Positions 17,433-38,250 of a stretch of 38,435 nt of DNA are shown in pieces (position 1 is the stretch's first letter; every line of letters begins with the position of its first letter). The DNA is taken from contig JAESPD010000035.1 of assembly GCA_016756855.1 (NCBI GenBank), positions 1 to 38,435 on the forward strand. Reading direction: 5' to 3'. The notes below the pieces were generated by a model. That model was not told the origin of the DNA, made no database searches, and was given only the letters and a program-made list of their open reading frames with translations. Made by a program: the position numbers and the translations under genes. This DNA is from a gamma proteobacterium endosymbiont of Lamellibrachia anaximandri (lineage in GTDB: Bacteria > Pseudomonadota > Gammaproteobacteria > Chromatiales > Chromatiaceae).

Positions 17433-17795
17433 ATGGCAAGCATTCTTGCAGTTGATGATTCGGCCTCCATGCGCCAGATGGTGCCCTTTACCTTGAAAGG
17501 TGCAGGATTTGATGTTGTTGAAGCAGTCGATGGTGTCGATGCCTTGAGCAAAGCCAAAGGCCAGAGCTTCAATCTCGTTATTACTGACGTCAACATGCCT
17601 AACATGGATGGAATCAGTCTGATCAAGGAGCTTAGGGGCCTGCCGGCTTTCAAATTTACGCCTCTTTTGATGCTGACCACCGAGTCAGGAAACGATAAAA
17701 AACAGCAGGGAAAGATGGCAGGGGCGACGGGTTGGATCGTCAAGCCTTTTAATCCAGATCAGTTGCTTGCGACGGTTAAGAAGGTATTGGGCTAA
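17433..17795 (+). CDS. cheY: Chemotaxis response regulator CheY
   Basis: This single-domain receiver of 120 aa takes phosphate from CheA and binds the flagellar switch. The acidic pair D8-D9, phospho-accepting D52 (ITDVNMPNMDG), the switch Thr in MLTTES and the Lys in IVKPFNPDQL are all present. There is no output domain. The ribosome site CCAGGAGAA is strong. It is the first gene after the FliA promoter and lies 44 bp before cheA. Confidence 0.94.
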   Translation: MASILAVDDSASMRQMVPFTLKGAGFDVVEAVDGVDALSKAKGQSFNLVITDVNMPNMDGISLIKELRGLPAFKFTPLLMLTTESGNDKKQQGKMAGATGWIVKPFNPDQLLATVKKVLG

Positions 17796-20507: not shown

Positions 20508-22895
20508 GTGAAGATTAACCAGCCTGTTACCAACAATGAACGTCAGATGAAACCGGGCAGCATCCTGGTTTCCAAGACTGATCTCAAAGGCGTCATTACC
20601 TACTGCAACAAGGATTTTGTTGAAATCAGTGGATTCAGCCGGAAAGAGTTGTATGGAAAAAGCCATAATATTGTGCGGCATCCTGATATGCCGCCCCAGG
20701 CCTTTCAGGATCTCTGGGACACCAGTAAAGCCGGCAAGCCCTGGACCGGCATCGTAAAGAATCGTTGCAAGAATGGAGACTACTACTGGGTTAAGGCAAA
20801 TGTAACGCCGCTGCGCACCAATGGCCGGGTCACCGAATACATGTCGGTGCGTACCCCGCCGACGCGTGAGGAGATTGCGGCTGTTGAGCCGCTCTACCGT
20901 GACCTGCTGGCAGACAGTAAAAAAGACCTGGCACCCAAAGGGCTGGCGAAGCTGAGTGCAGGTTTCAAGCGGCTGAGCATCAGGTTCCTGCTTACCGGCA
21001 CTGTTTTACTTACCGCGCTTATGTTCGGTTTGCTGGCAGGCATGATTTTTATGGGTGTTCCCCAAGTGCTGATCTACGGGTTGCTCGGGATCGTGGCGGC
21101 TGCCACCCTCGTTTTCGGTCTGGCACTGACCTCTTATGTCACCAAGCCTATGGTTTATGTCCAGGAGAAGCTGAACCAGATCAGCGAGGGCAACTATTTC
21201 GACTGGGTCGAGACCGATCGCAACGATGAGATAGGGAGGATGATTCAGACGCTAAAATCGACCCAGATCAAACTTGGGTTCGATGTCATGGATGCCCGTG
21301 AAACGGCGAATGATGCGATTCGTCTGCAGGAGGCGCTCAATAACAGCTCGACCAGTATCACGGTTTCGGACAAAGACAACATCCTGATCTTCATGAACAA
21401 GTCGGCCCATCGGCGGTTTGATGAATTGGGGGAGAATATTCGCAGCCAGGGCAAACCATTTGATACCGATGAGTTGATTGGTACCAGTCTGGCCGATTTC
21501 TTTCCCGATGAGACCCTGGCAGAGATGTACCGGAGCCAGCTTACCGATACCCGCACCAGTCGCTTCGATGCCTGGGGCCACAACTTCAAACTGATTACCA
21601 GTCCGGTCTACGATAGCGATGGCGACTATCAGGGGCGTGTGACCCAGTGGATCGAGATTACCAATGAGCTGAAGGTTGAAAAAGAGATCGACAGTATCGT
21701 GATGGCCGCCAAAGGTGGTGATCTTACGCAGCGTATCTCCATGGAGGGCAAGAGCGGTTTCTTTGAGGATCTGGGACGGGGCATCAATGAACTGATCGAG
21801 GCTACCAGTGATGTGTTTGGTGATATTGCCAGCGCCATGCAGAGCATGGCTGCGGGTGACCTGACCAACCCCATCCGTCGTGATTACGCCGGGACTTATG
21901 GCGCGGTGAAAAACAACGTCAATGAGACCATCTCCAATCTGGAGGAGACGATTGTCAAACTGCGGGAGTCCGCAGATGTCATCACCACGGCTGCGGGTGA
22001 GATCTCTTCCGGCAACAACAACCTGTCGGCGCGTACCGAACAGCAGGCGAGTAGTCTGGAAGAGACGGCCTCCAGTATGGAAGAGCTGACGAGCACCGTA
22101 CGTAACAATGCCGATAACGCCCAGCAGGCGAACCAGTTGGCAAGCAGTGCCAGACAGACGGCCGAGCATGGCGGTGATGTGGTAAGTCGCGCAGTTCAGG
22201 CAATGGATGCCATCAATACTTCCAGCAACAAGATTGCCGAGATCATTGGTGTCATCGACGAGATCGCCTTCCAGACCAATCTGCTGGCCCTGAATGCCTC
22301 CGTCGAGGCCGCCCGTGCCGGTGAGCAGGGCAGGGGGTTTGCCGTGGTCGCCACTGAAGTGCGTAATCTTGCAGGCCGCAGTGCCACGGCGGCAAAAGAG
22401 ATCAAAGAGTTGATTCAGGACAGTGCGGGCAAAGTGAAAAACGGCGCGGAACTGGTCAATGAGTCGGGCGAAACCCTTCAGGAGATCGTCAACAGCGTGA
22501 AGAAAGTGGGCGATATCATCTCCGAGATCGCCGCCGCCAGCCAGGAACAGTCTGCGGGCATCGATCAGGTCAATCAGGCGGTCACCAGTATGGATGAAGT
22601 GACCCAGCAAAACGCTGCCCTGGCAGAACAGACTTCGGCGGCTGCCGCCTCCATGAGCGAAAAGGCTCAGGATATGGATGGCATGATGAACTTCTTCAAG
22701 GTGAATGGCGGAAGCCGTATGACTGCCGCAAGAGAGCCGTCAGCGCACACGAAACCTGTGGCTATGGTTAGGAGAGCGACGCCAGCACCCAAGCCTGTGC
22801 CGAGTGTTAAGCCAGCAGCGCAGGCAGCGCCCAGCAGCGTTACCCAAATCACTCCGGTAGCGGAGGGTGAAGGGGATGAGTGGGAAGAGTTCTGA
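20508..22895 (+). CDS. Aer-like methyl-accepting chemotaxis protein with PAS domains and C-terminal EWEEF tether
   Basis: This 795-aa receptor starts at GTG 20508, with GGGAG 7 bases upstream. An N-terminal PAS domain of the Aer/redox type covers about 10-125 ([45 protein letters not shown]). Two close membrane helices follow (about 160-205) with almost no periplasmic part. Then come a HAMP (about 205-260), a second PAS (about 275-395), more HAMP-like helices (about 400-480) and the signalling hairpin, with its tip around residue 595 ([20 protein letters not shown]). The last residues DEWEEF match the [N/D/E]WExF pentapeptide that recruits CheR and CheB. Sensing is therefore probably intracellular, perhaps of redox or oxygen through a flavin; the cofactor is inferred from family only. 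Confidence 0.93.
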
Positions 22896-27767: not shown

Positions 27768-28334
27768 ATGAATAAAACAGCAATAGCGCCATCGACGGCG
27801 AAGCAACCTGATCTGGACTGGAGTCAGGTGCGGGAAACAATGCGCATGCTTAACCTCGCAGTTGCTCAGATCGATATGGCGATGCGGGAAGGTGAGGAGT
27901 CGATTCAAACGCTCAGTGAATCTTTTACCTCAATGATCTCCAGCGTGAGCGCCATTGCGCAAACCGCCGGTCAGTTACAGTGCCGGGATGAAAATGCCGG
28001 TGTGATAGCCATAATCGAGCAGGAAGGGGCGGATGTATCAGCCAAGATGCAGGCAAGCATTATGGCATTCCAGTTTTACGATAAACTTTCGCAGCGGCTC
28101 TCCCATGTGAACCATGCACTTGAGGCGTTGGGGGAGCTGGTGGGTGATCAGGGCAGGCTCTATAACCCCAATGAGTGGACCGGTCTGCAGGGAAAAATCA
28201 GATCGCGCTACAGCATGCGTGAAGAACAGGAGATGTTTGACGCCCTGCTGGCAGGCGCCACCATAGAACAGGCGCTGCAGATGGGGATAGAGGCGATGCA
28301 TGAGGCAGAGGACGATGATATCGAACTGTTTTAA
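27768..28334 (+). CDS. CheZ-like protein (putative CheY-P phosphatase) with C-terminal IELF tail
   Basis: This is a helical 188-aa protein with no membrane segment. Residues 101-109 read FQFYDKLSQ. D105 and Q109 have the same i/i+4 spacing as the CheZ catalytic pair (E. coli D143 and Q147 in QDLTGQ), and the surrounding helix is similar in character. The C terminus is acidic and ends DDDIELF. E. coli CheZ also ends in an acidic amphipathic peptide (DDLLDSLGF) that binds CheY. No other cheZ candidate is present in this cluster. Overall similarity to CheZ is low by eye, so the function is a hypothesis. The same tail type ends CheD and the short receptor at 31216. Confidence 0.6.
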   Translation: MNKTAIAPSTAKQPDLDWSQVRETMRMLNLAVAQIDMAMREGEESIQTLSESFTSMISSVSAIAQTAGQLQCRDENAGVIAIIEQEGADVSAKMQASIMAFQFYDKLSQRLSHVNHALEALGELVGDQGRLYNPNEWTGLQGKIRSRYSMREEQEMFDALLAGATIEQALQMGIEAMHEAEDDDIELF

Positions 28335-28362
28335 AACGCCACCGACCTGCTGACCAAGACAT

Positions 28363-28452
28363 TGTAGGCCGGTTCAAGCGTAGCGGAACCCGAAATCCAT
28401 GTGCTCTCTCTATCCGGAAACGCCAGATCCGCTATGCTTGATCTGGCCTACG
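28363..28452. repeat. REP-like palindromic intergenic repeat, copy B
   Basis: This is a second copy of the repeat at 6166-6257, in the opposite arm order. It runs from TGTAGGCCGGTTCAAGCGTA through AGATCCGCTATGCTTGATC to GGCCTACG. It lies inside the chemotaxis cluster between the CheZ-like gene and cheR. An open frame upstream of cheR runs through it and is not a real N terminus. The hairpin may tune expression of the genes after it. Confidence 0.85.
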
Positions 28453-28502
28453 CGCTAATCCAGAAAAATAATGTCATAAAATTGTTGAAGGACCATACAG
28501 TA

Positions 28503-29339
28503 ATGCGCGATCGAGAGTTTGAGTTTACCCAAAAGGATTTCGAGTTTTTACGCGGAATTGCGAACCAGCGTACCGGTATAGTCGTCTCCGATGATAAATT
28601 CGATATGTTCTATTCCCGGCTATCGCGGCGGGTACGCAAACTGGGGATGGCAACCTTCAGTGAATATTGCGATCTTATCCGCGCTAACCAGGATGGAGAT
28701 GAAATGGTGGAGTTGGTCAACTCCATTACGACCAATCTCACTGCGTTTTTTCGCGAAAACCACCACTTTGAGTATCTTGCCGATACAGTGATTCCGGAGT
28801 TACTGGCGAAAAATTCAGCAGAGAGGAATATTCGTATCTGGTCTGCCGGTTGTTCTACCGGCGAAGAACCCTATTCACTCTCCATTACCCTGAATGAAGT
28901 CCTGGCGCAGGTTGCAGGATGGGATGTGAAGGTTCTTGCTACCGATATTGACTCCAATGTACTCGCTCGTGCTGCGAGTGGCGTCTATCCGATGGAAAGG
29001 GTCAATGGGTTGGACAATGCGCGCCTGCGGCGCTGGTTTCAGAAGGGCAAAGGGGAGCATGGCGGCAAGGTCAGGTTGAAACCTGAGGTTCGCAGACTGA
29101 TCGAATTTGGCCAACTGAACCTGATGCAGAAATGGTCGATTGATTCGCCCAAGGATGTGATCTTCTGCCGCAACGTGATTATCTATTTTGATAAGGAGTC
29201 AAAGATTAAGTTGATTGAGCGTTATGCCGATAACCTGAAAGTGGGTGGTTATCTTTTTATTGGACACTCTGAATCACTGTTCAAACTCACGGATCGTTTT
29301 GAATTGATAGGCCAGACAATCTATCGAAAGGTAAAATAG
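28503..29339 (+). CDS. cheR: Chemotaxis protein methyltransferase CheR
   Basis: CheR methylates receptor glutamates with S-adenosylmethionine. The start at 28503 (MRDREFEFTQKDFEFLRG) has GAAGGA about 10 bases upstream; a longer frame runs back through the palindromic repeat. The 278-aa protein shows the N-terminal helical domain, TTNLTAFFREN, the SAM motif WSAGCSTGEEPYS, ATDIDSNVLARAASGVYP and IFCRNVIIYFD near the end. It is followed 7 bp later by cheD. A receptor with the EWEEF tether is encoded in the same cluster. Confidence 0.96.
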   Translation: MRDREFEFTQKDFEFLRGIANQRTGIVVSDDKFDMFYSRLSRRVRKLGMATFSEYCDLIRANQDGDEMVELVNSITTNLTAFFRENHHFEYLADTVIPELLAKNSAERNIRIWSAGCSTGEEPYSLSITLNEVLAQVAGWDVKVLATDIDSNVLARAASGVYPMERVNGLDNARLRRWFQKGKGEHGGKVRLKPEVRRLIEFGQLNLMQKWSIDSPKDVIFCRNVIIYFDKESKIKLIERYADNLKVGGYLFIGHSESLFKLTDRFELIGQTIYRKVK

Positions 29340-29346
29340 CAGGGAC

Positions 29347-29973
29347 ATGATGCATAAGGAACTGACCAGTTCTCTACCGGGGTTTGAGACAATCAACCGG
29401 TATTGGGATCGAAATCATAAGATGCCGGCGGCGAAGATTCTGCCGGGAGAATATTATGTGACGACCAATGACGAGATCATCACCACGGTATTGGGTTCCT
29501 GCGTTTCGGCGTGTATTTGGGACACTGTTTTCGGTATCGGTGGTATGAATCATTTCATGCTGCCTCTGAGTGACAGTGGTTCCTGGGGCGGCAGTGATCT
29601 TGTGAGCACCTCCACCCGGTATGGAAACTACGCCATGGAGCATATGATCAATGACATTTTGCGTCACGGTGGGCACCGTCCCAATCTGTCAGTGAAGATC
29701 TTTGGGGGTGGCAAGATCATCAGCGGAATGTCAGATGTTGGAGAGAAAAATATCCAGTTCATCCGTGAATATATTGAGCAGGAACAGTTAAATCTTCTGG
29801 GTGAGGATGTCGGTGATATCTACCCCAGAAAGGTTGTTTTCTATCCCGCCAGCGGCAGGGTTAGAATTAAGAAACTCAAACATATGCACAACGATACAGT
29901 AGTCAAGCGCGAGGTTGCCTATCAGCACGATATCGAAGAAGCACCTGTGGTGGGAGAGGTGGAGCTTTTCTGA
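29347..29973 (+). CDS. cheD: Chemoreceptor glutamine deamidase CheD with C-terminal VELF tail
   Basis: CheD deamidates receptor glutamines to glutamates. The 208-aa protein has the catalytic set in the spacing of Thermotoga CheD: T46, C52 (TVLGSCVSACIWD) and H69 (GGMNHFMLP). IFGGGKII and GDIYPRKVVFYPASGRV are also typical. It is longer than minimal CheD at the C terminus and ends GEVELF, a tail also found on the receptor at 31216 and nearly so on the CheZ-like protein. Two ATGs (29347 and 29350) are possible. The second has better spacing from AGGGA. Confidence 0.94.
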   Translation: MMHKELTSSLPGFETINRYWDRNHKMPAAKILPGEYYVTTNDEIITTVLGSCVSACIWDTVFGIGGMNHFMLPLSDSGSWGGSDLVSTSTRYGNYAMEHMINDILRHGGHRPNLSVKIFGGGKIISGMSDVGEKNIQFIREYIEQEQLNLLGEDVGDIYPRKVVFYPASGRVRIKKLKHMHNDTVVKREVAYQHDIEEAPVVGEVELF

Positions 29974-30036
29974 TGTGTGATGATTGGGATCTGTTTACAA
30001 ACGAGAAGGTTTGGTTGTAGTGATGGAAGAAAAATC

Positions 30037-31107
30037 ATGATCAAGGTTCTGGTAGTGGATGATTCAGCACTGGTGCGCCAGTTGTTGACATCAATCCTGA
30101 GTGAAGATCCCGGGATCGAAGTGGTTGGAAGTGCCGCCGATCCTTTTGTGGCGCGTGAAAAGATAAAGAAGCTGAACCCTGACGTTTTGACGCTTGATGT
30201 CGAGATGCCGCGTATGGACGGTGTTACATTTCTCGGCAATCTGATGCGTCTGCGTCCAATGCCGGTGGTGATGGTCTCCACCCTGACGGAACAGGGTGCG
30301 GACGTGACGCTGCGTGCGCTTGAGGCGGGTGCAGTGGATTTTGTTTCCAAGCCGAAGCTGGATGTGGCTCATGAGTTGCCCGAGTATTCGGAAGAGATCA
30401 TCGGCAAGGTCAAGACGGCGGCCAAGGCCAGGGTGCGGGCACTGGAACGGCGAGCTGCCAATAAAACCAGTGTCACGGAAAAATTGAGTGCCGATGCAGT
30501 GCTTTCCAAGCCTGTGATAAAAAAACATTTCCGCACAACGGACAGAATCATCGGTATCGGTTCATCCACCGGCGGTACGGAGGCGATCAAGGACGTAGTG
30601 CGGGATCTGCCGCCGGATATGCCGGGTATCGTGATATCACAGCATATTCCCGAAGCATTCAGTGGTCCGTTTGCCCAGCGGGTCAACAGCATTACTGCTC
30701 TGACCGTGGTCGAAGCCACTGATGGTCAACAGGTTTTGCAGGGGCATGTCTATATCGCCCCGGGTAACCGTCATCTCATCATACAGCGGGATGGTGCACG
30801 ATATATCTGCAAGCTGAACGATGGTCCTCCTGTCAATCGCCACAAGCCGTCTGTAGATGTCATGTTTCGCTCTCTTTCCCAGAATGCTGGCGCCAATGCC
30901 ATCGCCGTTATGTTGACCGGCATGGGGGATGACGGGGCTGCAGGGATGGGAGAGATGAGGCAGGCAGGTTCTCCAACCATCGCACAGGATGAGAGGACGA
31001 GCGTTGTTTGGGGCATGCCTGGGGAGGCAGTAAAGCGGGGGTTTGTGAAGGAAGTCCTTTCGTTAAACAAGATCGGAAAACGCCTGCAAGAGTTGAGTTC
31101 AGAGTAG
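30037..31107 (+). CDS. cheB: Chemotaxis response regulator protein-glutamate methylesterase CheB
   Basis: CheB removes receptor methyl groups and is activated by CheA. The frame gives 356 aa from ATG 30037 ([17 protein letters not shown]). An upstream in-frame ATG at 29977 adds 20 residues not found in the family. The receiver domain has D54 ([12 protein letters not shown]). A linker of about 45 residues follows, then the methylesterase with S177 ([11 protein letters not shown]), H203 ([13 protein letters not shown]) and D299 ([13 protein letters not shown]). There is no terminal receptor-tether peptide. A FliA promoter follows it before the next receptor. Confidence 0.96.
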
Positions 31108-31120
31108 TGTCAACAGTCCC

Positions 31121-31147
31121 TAAGGTTTTTCCCGGTCTTGCCGATAA
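31121..31147 (+). promoter_or_regulatory. FliA (sigma-28) promoter upstream of the short receptor gene
   Basis: TAAGGTTT (31121-31128), an 11-bp spacer and GCCGATAA (31140-31147) match the consensus TAAAGTTT-N11-GCCGATAA at 15 of 16 positions. It lies in the 108-bp gap after cheB, 69 bp before the receptor start. This makes the last receptor and the two STAS genes a separate flagellar-class unit. Confidence 0.92.
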
Positions 31148-31215
31148 GTGGTTAAGAGCCCGGCAAGTCAAACCATCTGTATCGGGTCGCGTGTTTTGAA
31201 ACTGGGCTTTGTAGA

Positions 31216-32427
31216 GTGAAATTCGAATACCTGAAAACCCATTGGATACCCTATCTGGCAAGTGTGGTGCTGTTTGCCGCCGTGCTTGCGCTGGGTTCAG
31301 GCTGGTTTGAAGCGGGGGCTCTTCTGATGCTGATGGCCTTATGGGGGGTGCAGCACCACCGGCTCTATCAAGATGATCGGAACAAGGCACTAGCCCTGAG
31401 CGCAACTGAAGGTGGATCCGCACTGACCACAGAAATGCAGGGGTTGGCCGATGATCTGCAAACCGGTGTCGGTGGTTTGACGGGGGCTCTGGAGAATGAG
31501 TTGAGCCAGATTCGAGCGCTGGTTGGCGATGCCGTCGGTACCCTGCAAGGCAGCTTCAATGGCATAAACGATCAGTCCCAGGCCCAGTTGGACATGGTTC
31601 AGGCGATGCTGGCCAATGTCGCGGACAATATCGAAAATGAGAGTGGACGGGTGTCGTTTGCGGAATTTGCCCAGGAGACTGACAAGGTTCTGCGGTTTTT
31701 CGTCACTCATGTTGTCGAGATCAGCCAAAACACCATTTATATGGTGGAAACCATCGAGGATATGGCAACTCAGATGGATAGGGCCGATGCGCTGTTGAAC
31801 GATGTCAAGATGATTGCCAATCAGACCAACCTGCTGGCGCTGAATGCGGCCATAGAAGCGGCTCGTGCCGGAGAGGCGGGACGGGGGTTTGCGGTGGTGG
31901 CCGACGAGGTGCGCAAGCTCTCACAGCGTTCGAACCGTTTCAACGACGAGATACGTGAGGTCATTGTCGGCTCCCGCGATAGTATTTCCGAGGCCAAAGA
32001 TTCGGTGGCAAAGCTTGCCTCTAAGGATATGACTTTTGCGATTCAGTCTAAATCCAAGGTTGATGAGATGATGGAGCAGATCGGCCAGATGAATGAAAGC
32101 ACGGCTTTGCATCTTTCTCAGGTCTCCGAGATGTCGGGACGGATCAACTACCTGGTGGGCGATGCGGTACGCTCGTTGCAGTTTGAAGACATAGTCCGGC
32201 AGTTGGCGGGTTATAGTGAACACCATATTGGGCGACTGAATGAGATTTTCAGGCGTGTACAGTCTGACATTGATGGCATGATGCAGGATCCGGCTGGCAG
32301 TGCTGAGACATTTGCAGTGAAAATGGGGCAGTTGCGGGTCATGGTCCATGAAGAGTTCTCGCAGGAACAGGCTCATAAGCCGGTGGATCAGACATCCATG
32401 GACGAGGGTGAGGTTGAGTTATTTTAG
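31216..32427 (+). CDS. Short methyl-accepting chemotaxis protein with CheZ-like QFEDIVRQ helix and VELF tail
   Basis: This 403-aa receptor-like protein starts at GTG 31216 with a weak ribosome site. Two adjacent N-terminal membrane helices (about 12-28 and 32-46) leave no periplasmic sensor. A coiled coil leads to the signalling tip near residue 205 ([18 protein letters not shown]). After the hairpin, residues 319-329 read [12 protein letters not shown]325 and Q329 have the spacing of the CheZ catalytic pair. The protein ends GEVELF. Family knowledge supports receptor coupling to CheW and CheA. The phosphatase-like part is my inference. With no input domain it may report on membrane or array state, or work through its tail. 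It has its own FliA promoter. Confidence 0.88.
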
Positions 32428-36822: not shown

Positions 36823-38250
36823 ATGACTAATAATGAAAGACTTTTTGAAGCATGTGAATCGGGGCATCTTAATGAAGTGATGAGTCTGATAGCGCCGAGA
36901 TTCTTATTTTTCAGCCTCTCGCCAACGGTCCAGATAAATATTACTGATAAGGACGGTAATGCTCCGCTGCACATCGCCTCAAAGAATGGCCACAATACAA
37001 TCGTTAAGATACTCATTGACAAAGGCGCTGATGTAAATCGCACGAACAAGAATGGAGACACCCCACTGAATTGGGCATTAATCAAAGGCCATGATGATAT
37101 TGCTGAGTTTATCATTGGAAAAGGTGCTGATATCAATGCCGTAAATAAACATGCTAATCCCCCACTACACAAGGCTCTGGAGTTTAAACGCAGAAACATT
37201 GCAGAACTGCTTATTAACAAAGGTGCTGATGTGAACGCGGTGGATAGGAATGGCAAGACCGCGCTTCTGTGGGCATCGATGCATGGCTTTGAGGATATTG
37301 TAAAACTTGTCTTACAAGAAGGTGCAGATTTAAATACATCTGACAAGTATGGTAATACTCCGGTCTACATGGCATCGAGGGGTGGCCACAAAAATATCGA
37401 AAATCACCTTGTTAACAAAGGTGCAGTTGTAGAGAGTAAAATTAAAGACGCTGTGGAAGAAGAGATGCCTCTGCCTAATGAGCATAACTCTGGTGGAGAC
37501 GTGTTTATGATGCCTATTGAAGACGGTCTCTTTGGTGCGTGTCGAGTGATTCGTAGAGGCGACCCAGCCAAACGACATCTGAATGATTGGATGGAAGTAA
37601 CGGAAAATGGCGTTCTCGTTACCCTGACAGCTTGGATGGGAACTTCGCAACCAGATATTTCCGAACCAAAACTGAGAGAGCCGTTGCGCAAGACCTTCGG
37701 GAATTGGAATGGTGAAACCGAATTAATTTGGGTTACAAAACCACTTCCCGCTGAGTTCAAATGCATCGGAAAGTTACAGCCAACCGCTGAAGAATTGAAA
37801 CTGAATAGTAACGAAAATTCAGGTTGGTATTGGCTTTTGGATATGGTTTCAGAACAATGCAAGTGTGAAAAAGAAAGCAAAAAAGGAGATGCAACTAAAA
37901 TCGATCCTAACATAAAAGAAACAGTGATTACTGAGTATTTAGATGAAACACTTTTTTACGCATCAGAAGGTGGAAATCTTGCAGAAATCACTGCTGCACT
38001 CCATGGGGGAGCTAATTCCAATGCTCATAATGGAATAAATACCGCACTAATGATGGCTGCACGAAATGGCCATATAGAAGCATTAAAGCTTCTTCTTGAT
38101 GCAGGTGCTGACCCAAACATTACGAATAGTGCTGGAGATACTGCACTCCGATGGGCAGGTGAGAACTCTGATGTTACAGAAATACTTCAGGATGTTACTG
38201 ACTTAACAAAGGGAAAATCCATTTTTGAATTTCCTCTTATGAAACAATAA
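36823..38250 (+). CDS. Ankyrin-repeat protein with an internal Imm26-like domain
   Basis: This 475-aa protein has three parts. Residues about 1-215 hold one degenerate and five good ankyrin repeats (for example GNAPLHIASKNGHNTIVKIL, GKTALLWASMHGFEDIVKLV), each ending in a G-A-D-x-N-type loop. Residues about 220-365 form a different domain starting GGDVFMMPIEDGLFGACRVI. That start resembles immunity protein 26 (GDvfxIPLpdGxygxgRVl); the later part (LIWVTKPLPAEFKCIGKL) fits the same family loosely. Residues about 370-470 hold two to three more ankyrin repeats. There is no signal peptide, so it is probably cytoplasmic. Ankyrin and Imm26 domains both occur as immunity proteins in polymorphic toxin loci. 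A protective role against the upstream peptidase is possible but unproven. Confidence 0.82.
   Translation: MTNNERLFEACESGHLNEVMSLIAPRFLFFSLSPTVQINITDKDGNAPLHIASKNGHNTIVKILIDKGADVNRTNKNGDTPLNWALIKGHDDIAEFIIGKGADINAVNKHANPPLHKALEFKRRNIAELLINKGADVNAVDRNGKTALLWASMHGFEDIVKLVLQEGADLNTSDKYGNTPVYMASRGGHKNIENHLVNKGAVVESKIKDAVEEEMPLPNEHNSGGDVFMMPIEDGLFGACRVIRRGDPAKRHLNDWMEVTENGVLVTLTAWMGTSQPDISEPKLREPLRKTFGNWNGETELIWVTKPLPAEFKCIGKLQPTAEELKLNSNENSGWYWLLDMVSEQCKCEKESKKGDATKIDPNIKETVITEYLDETLFYASEGGNLAEITAALHGGANSNAHNGINTALMMAARNGHIEALKLLLDAGADPNITNSAGDTALRWAGENSDVTEILQDVTDLTKGKSIFEFPLMKQ

Follow-up and report, generated by a model that had tools for sequence, protein, structure and literature searches.

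The locus considered here is a chemosensory cluster of the F7 type. According to PMC7184735, F7 is the ancestor of the Escherichia coli system, and its stage 1 and stage 2 clusters do not include a cheZ. The original function of F7, the job of its McpA-like (CttP) receptors and the meaning of the McpA tail were left open there in 2020; the conserved C terminus of McpA was already in print as important, with an unclear role, and a valine within it was reported, from an earlier study, to block the binding of CheR. Here, we describe a short acidic C-terminal peptide ending in ELF that is carried by three proteins of an F7-type cluster in a stretch of 38,435 nt (hereafter, the window), which is contig C135 of the 4.26 Mb genome of a gammaproteobacterial endosymbiont of Lamellibrachia anaximandri. 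The three are a CheZ-like protein (CheZL), the receptor glutamine deamidase CheD and a short methyl-accepting chemotaxis protein (MCP) of the McpA type (sMCP). An earlier sequence-only reading had noticed their shared acidic-[VI]ELF end; the ends of the ORFs (open reading frames) confirm it, and all three lie on the forward strand.

The short receptor corresponds to the McpA-like receptors of PMC7184735, an assignment based on gene order and the conserved tail: it is a short MCP encoded after cheB in an F7 cluster, with a conserved non-aromatic C terminus. The locus differs from that description in that the accessible portion of the paper has no such tail on CheD, CheZ-like or cyclase proteins and no CheZ signature in McpA. 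CheZ of the E. coli (F6) type resembles the proteins studied here in having D-x-x-x-Q on a helix after a Phe, then a linker, then an acidic C-terminal peptide that ends in Phe. However, the C-terminal CheY-binding helix of CheZ is LxSLGF (the canonical CheZ of the same genome ends DDVDDLLSSLGF), whereas CheZL and sMCP have an ELF-type tail; moreover, the site of McpA is on a receptor helix, and CheZL lies below detection by the CheZ model. In Bacillus subtilis, CheD function is also tied to phospho-CheY, with CheC as the go-between (PMC3513319), while here CheD would bear the peptide itself; CheC was not found in this genome (CheX was not searched for).

The tail was surveyed in 162 che loci, made up of 42 CheD loci of named genomes and 120 class-wide CheD regions. 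These loci are not fully independent, because in some cases one record seems to have entered both sets (L056/L138, L052/L154 and L048/L144 are the likely pairs). The strict tail was defined as [IV]-[ED]-L-F at the carboxyl terminus, or a close variant, with identical proteins counted once and matches of 40 bits or less left out. It was found on 107 of 159 distinct CheDs (127 of 159 when up to four extra residues were allowed), on all 61 McpA-like receptors and on 30 of 32 CheZ-like proteins. No CheA (0/96), CheB (0/147), CheR (0/154) or CheY (0/59) carried it, and it ended one of 143 CheW-type proteins (one of 46 for the CheW2-type members of that class). Of 7533 other ORFs with a length of 60 aa or more, a set that includes spurious frames, 12 (0.16%) had the strict pattern. 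A looser C-terminal pattern was run on 2698 ORFs from the 162 loci, each 90 aa or longer, after those lying more than 40% inside annotated ORFs had been dropped; it returned 117 CheD, 63 short receptors, 29 CheZ-like proteins and two others, a CheW matched by chance and a diguanylate cyclase. The shared tail is real and strongly conserved, and is not a product of chance.

Counted from the C terminus, F occupies position -1 in nearly all tailed proteins, -2 is L (F in a minority), -3 is mostly E or D, -4 is I or V and -5 is mostly acidic; position -6 is mostly G in CheD and the receptors, and D in CheZL. The linker upstream of the tail is conserved in parts within CheD, and also within the receptors, and in both AlphaFold2 (AF2) models it is of low confidence and without secondary structure. 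When one tail has drifted, that of a neighbour may have done so as well: a drifted ITFF tail is found on CheD and receptor alike at locus L120, and genome G133 has VTLF on its receptor and cyclase, though the CheD there ends in VELF. Conservation and co-occurrence had been suggested as a check by the sequence-only reading, and the tails are indeed conserved in all three families; where both genes were in view, CheD and receptor were both tailed at 55 loci, the receptor alone at seven and CheD alone at none. We rejected the possibility that the tail is a trait of close relatives only. The CheDs of four tubeworm endosymbionts share 96-98% identity with that of the window, but the tail is present in CheDs 51-98% identical to the query, in most of the 120 class-wide loci and on McpA C termini down to 9% identity.

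CheZL and sMCP share a second feature, the motif QF-x-D-x-x-x-Q, present in 33/33 CheZL and 62/62 sMCP, in which Q102, F103, D105 and Q109 of CheZL and the corresponding Q, F, D and Q of sMCP are invariant. The motif contains the Asp, the Gln and the preceding Phe of the CheZ active site, which reads DFQDLTGQ; a published CheZ signature is AXXFQ adjoining DXXXQ (PMC7750401). In 28 McpA C termini, with as little as 9% identity to that of the window, no column other than Q, F, D, Q and the terminal F is invariant. The tie between motif and tail was strict amongst 164 distinct MCPs found by a hairpin pattern (MCPs missed by the pattern lie outside this count): the tail was present in 52/52 with QFxDxxxQ and in 0/112 without it. 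The sequence-only reading had likened the tail to that of E. coli CheZ, and the parallel is closer than was claimed, because both CheZL and the receptor carry the CheZ active-site signature.

Profile comparison with hhalign showed CheZL to be homologous to the C-terminal part of sMCP (E 2.9e-12). The three tailed proteins had been described as unrelated in fold, which holds for CheD only. The McpA C-terminal profile aligned with canonical CheZ at E 4e-5 with F, D and Q in register; as controls, the best of 60 column shuffles reached 0.069, and ordinary MCP C termini 0.3. The same profile reaches canonical CheZ proteins, three of them read directly (L343, L345 and L346) and two by coordinates. 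From the other side, the Pfam CheZ model gave E-values of 3.4e-6, 6.7e-5 and 4.3e-4 with McpA-like proteins of two other genomes, the best scoring 27.8 of the 30.7 bits required and so falling below the cut-off. Six of the seven such sub-cut-off matches were fetched: three carry QFQDxxxQ together with a tail of the ELF or FF type (the hairpin string used as a search pattern is absent from one of these, L303), a fourth is an ordinary MCP, and in the remaining two no such features were seen. These profiles weakly link McpA and CheZ in both directions. The AF2 model of CheZL is a helical hairpin (pLDDT 75, pTM 0.56), compared with the two-hairpin four-helix bundle of CheZ. Sequence searches of Pfam, NCBIfam and the PDB matched CheZL to no fitting family, and its PDB matches, mostly to coiled coils, were rejected as chance. 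As a separate observation, a second conserved stretch, approximately Y[ST]M..E, separates the active-site helix from the tail linker in CheZL and in divergent McpA-like receptors (L120, L160, L204, L302 and L311).

Three loci constitute natural experiments. L164, L188 and L192 have an in-cluster canonical CheY (Y106) and a CheZ with an LGF tail; CheD is untailed in all three, CheA, CheW, CheR and CheB are kept, and one of the three also keeps ParA. No F7 CheY was present 5' of cheA in the stretches read, and the three genomes gave no McpA match at E 0.001. In L192 the linker upstream of the tail is still present, together with an EWEEF receptor. Genome G224 likewise has a tailless CheD and no McpA match at E 0.001, and keeps its F7 CheY. 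The search for McpA covered 23 hand-chosen, non-random genomes, and the other 19, all with a tailed CheD, had a match; in G099 and G275 the best match to the McpA profile was the tailed CheZ-like protein. Genome G107 contains a 162-codon ORF (C1, ~3734827-3735315; L335) that is separated by 68 bases from the F7 cheY downstream of it and keeps the QFHDMATQ helix and an McpA-type tail, SPVTQSEMDAGSIDLF, the receptor hairpin being gone. Judged by its sequence, this ORF looks like an McpA remnant. The converse is not true, as McpA is kept with a tailless CheD in L167, L176, L209, L211 and G314 (= L165/L311).

The CheY types fit a docking role of the tail. Two loci without a CheD above 40 bits (L206 and L215) were left out, leaving 129 loci with a tailed CheD (up to four extra residues allowed) and 31 with an untailed one. 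A CheY was in view in 28 of the 129, and in 28/28 it was of the W106 type (two loci show another regulator too), while all 29 CheYs adjoining a canonical CheZ have Y106. The F7 and F6 CheY faces differ at positions 91, 92, 94, 95, 99, 106 and 119: on the docking face, F7 has mostly K94 and K95 and always W106, and F6 has Q94, I95 and Y106. In L066, L120, L141, L160 and L311, the CheY gene adjoins that of a tailed receptor.

The tail had been presented as a trait of chemotaxis-cluster proteins, which is accurate for three cluster families and incomplete, as it is also found on a diguanylate cyclase outside the cluster. This cyclase (G000:C120:45279-46337; L228, L263 and L270) is unlinked to the cluster in this genome and ends SGEIDLF, and the tail is kept in 4/4 homologues (E 1e-60 cut, 143 genomes) at 35-40% identity, one having an extra F. 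A cyclase at L160 (9221-10273) adjoins cheB and is also tailed. A Magnetococcales receptor (L066:518-2005) has two tandem tails, GIDLF and NIELF, and a CheZL-like YTM..E stretch, and is followed by cheY. A response regulator whose C-terminal part is long (G000:C24:36158-37378; L222 and L271) ends EGDIELF; we count it as a single case, because the tail was absent from all ten related proteins read (an eleventh, L262, was left out). A pattern match on C144 was rejected as an eight-codon frame.

The interpretation that we favour, and consider fairly probable, is that the tail docks on F7 CheY, that McpA and CheZL dephosphorylate phospho-CheY (CheY-P), and that CheD is coupled to CheY-P directly, without CheC. 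The [DE]-[IV]-[ED]-L-F tail on its flexible linker would serve as the docking peptide, in a role like that of the acidic LGF tail of E. coli CheZ. In CheZL and the McpA-like receptor, it would hold phospho-CheY and feed it to the helix-borne D/Q site, and dephosphorylation would follow. In CheD, it would make deamidase activity or the binding of receptors responsive to phospho-CheY, a coupling for which other systems use CheC, and the tailed diguanylate cyclase would represent an output. One shared partner, as the sequence-only reading had proposed, is still the simplest explanation, and its list of candidates appears to narrow towards F7 CheY; CheA, CheW, CheR and CheB are disfavoured because L164, L188 and L192, with their F6-type CheY and CheZ, keep all four, yet have an untailed CheD. 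We offer tentatively, as possible, a more far-reaching version, in which McpA-like receptors would chiefly be CheZ-type phosphatases that sit in the flagellar (F6) array and drain F7 phospho-CheY, wiring the two systems together, CheD would read CheY-P through its tail without CheC, and the tailed cyclase would give a c-di-GMP output.

A number of results weigh against the favoured interpretation. In 11 loci a W106 CheY accompanies an untailed CheD (two of these loci keep an internal GEVELF); having the partner is thus not enough to impose a tail. We rejected the CheY surface as a discriminator: because the CheYs of untailed loci share much of the F7 face, this surface neither singles out tail binders nor proves docking. 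The direct hhalign comparison of the CheZL profile with CheZ was not significant (E 0.47), the Pfam CheZ model did not match CheZL, and a Foldseek search with CheZL gave 407 matches, not one of which reached E 0.001, and showed no CheZ fold (the best 50 were seen). Residues 1-284 of sMCP scored 6.6e-4 on CheZ and 2.1e-3 on CheZL, and ordinary MCP C termini 1.3e-3 on CheZL; helical similarity contributes part of the profile signal. The own genome, in which 19 of 20 MCP loci were read (L019 was left out), has further tailed McpA-like receptors. One, on C151, ends EGEVQLF and has the signature QFEDIVNQ; another, on C57, ends SGDVDLF and has QVDDMSRQ, not QF, and one receptor without the signature motif ends NTELF. 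Finally, an overproduced McpA-GFP fusion enhanced swimming of Shewanella oneidensis like untagged McpA (PMC9855816).

The main alternative, which we regard as unlikely, is that the tail is an address label to the array or to a polar scaffold (CheA P2, CheW, ParA or a hub of the FimV/HubP type) and does not act directly at CheY. A tailed cyclase unlinked to the cluster and a ParA-like gene within it would suit such a label, as would the placement of another diguanylate cyclase, DgcP, by FimV (PMC7033161). However, localization of DgcP needs its GGDEF domain (PMC7033161), and we rejected the argument for a FimV hub from DgcP, which is a different protein. McpA is in any case already an array receptor (PMC9855816), and an address label leaves unexplained the strict tie of the tail to the phosphatase motif. 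It is also at odds with the untailed CheDs of the three F6-type CheY/CheZ loci, which keep the array proteins and, in one case, ParA.

That the tails are diverged CheR/CheB-binding pentapeptides is improbable. The known pentapeptides (NWETF, GWEEF) are likewise short C-terminal motifs with a Phe on chemoreceptors, the tails resemble the EWEEF of the neighbouring receptor in position, terminal Phe and acidic residues, and cheR and cheB are in the operon. Nevertheless, the ELF tail is without an aromatic residue at the second position, and the two patterns never mix across families: x-[HFYW]-x-x-[HFYW] ends 109 of 128 MCP1-type receptors, 0/159 CheD, 0/61 sMCP and 0/32 CheZL, while the ELF pattern ends 0/128 of those MCP1-type receptors. 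The P. aeruginosa McpA, which has the valine, binds none of four CheRs, which excludes CheR as its partner (PMC7184735). It is highly improbable that the tail is a C-terminal degron, or a PDZ or protease ligand, that sets turnover. Proteases commonly recognize a free hydrophobic C terminus, but 20 further distinct CheDs have one to four residues beyond the motif (ELFD, ELFG and ELFGK among them; the pattern with such extra residues also matches 3/147 CheB by chance), which suggests that a free carboxylate is not needed, and the tie to the CheZ signature would again go unexplained. Coincidence or a beta-clamp-like motif has a negligible probability: the own genome's DNA polymerase (G000:C120:55258, L229; presumably of family B) ends NQMDLF, close to the beta-clamp binding motif QxxLF and in contrast to the chemosensory tails, but that motif has Q at its first position, where more than 80% of tailed CheD, sMCP and CheZL have D or E and Q is outside the four commonest residues (except in ~3% of CheZL), and across a whole class the tail is specific to a small number of chemosensory families.

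The features of the window are listed in the table below. The cluster runs, 5' to 3', cheY, cheA, cheW, MCP1, MCP2, cheW, parA, STAS, CheZ-like, cheR, cheD, cheB, short receptor, STAS, STAS; ten of its proteins were checked against Pfam, and CheY, CheA, CheW and ParA were named from sequence. The order resembles that of the stage 1 F7 system in the accessible portion of PMC7184735, with extra parA and CheZ-like genes and with the STAS genes elsewhere. Among the cluster ORFs read, no serine phosphatase gene was seen, and no HAMP or sensor domain was matched in sMCP. The assignment of CheD as a deamidase rests on PF03975 together with Cys52 in LGSC and His69 in HFMLP, which we take to be the catalytic pair. 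STAS proteins encoded 5' of the CheZ-like gene in other loci end AWGLF (L043:3745-4524), GYGFF (L050:3998-4567) and AFGFF (L058:2249-2980), which suit either a variant tail or the pentapeptide pattern of CheR binding. At 36823-38250, close to where the window ends, lies a protein with what appear by eye to be ankyrin-like repeats.

Features of the chemosensory cluster, with positions in the window
Feature	Coordinates	Strand	Remarks
CheZ-like protein (CheZL), 188 aa	27768..28334	+	AF2 helical hairpin, H19-68/H77-126
CheZL QFYDKLSQ, residues 102-109, CheZ-type active-site signature	28071..28094	+	
CheZL C-terminal tail DDDIELF and stop	28311..28334	+	Protein end reads EAEDDDIELF
CheD receptor glutamine deamidase, 208 aa	29347..29973	+	PF03975, 1.8e-28; NCBIfam NF010013, 4.7e-82, match reaches last residue
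CheD C-terminal tail GEVELF and stop	29953..29973	+	Protein end reads VVGEVELF
Short McpA-like receptor (sMCP), 403 aa, MCP signalling domain	31216..32427	+	
sMCP QFEDIVRQ, residues 322-329, CheZ-type active-site signature	32179..32202	+	In register with CheZ DFQDLTGQ
sMCP C-terminal tail GEVELF and stop	32407..32427	+	Protein end reads DEGEVELF
F7 CheY, W at E. coli position 106, proposed docking partner	17433..17795	+	Named from sequence
MCP1 C terminus GDEWEEF	22872..22895	+	Known CheR/CheB pentapeptide type, distinct from ELF tails

The McpA tail itself was already known; what is new is the same tail on CheD, on a CheZ-like protein and on a diguanylate cyclase family. We found no report in the openly licensed literature of the tail on any of these three proteins, nor of a CheZ site in McpA, and neither McpA nor CheD is named in the main text of the pentapeptide papers PMC7698151 and PMC7390727. 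With one peptide common to CheD, a cyclase, a CheZ-like protein and a receptor that also has a CheZ-type site, these proteins fall into one testable scheme, in which the tail most probably gives several members of an old, little-understood sensing system a grip on a single signalling partner. The McpA-like receptor, long taken as an ordinary receptor, looks from its sequence like a hidden off-switch enzyme for the signal. If the more far-reaching version is true, it would supply ancestral F7 systems with their missing phosphatase and with an output.

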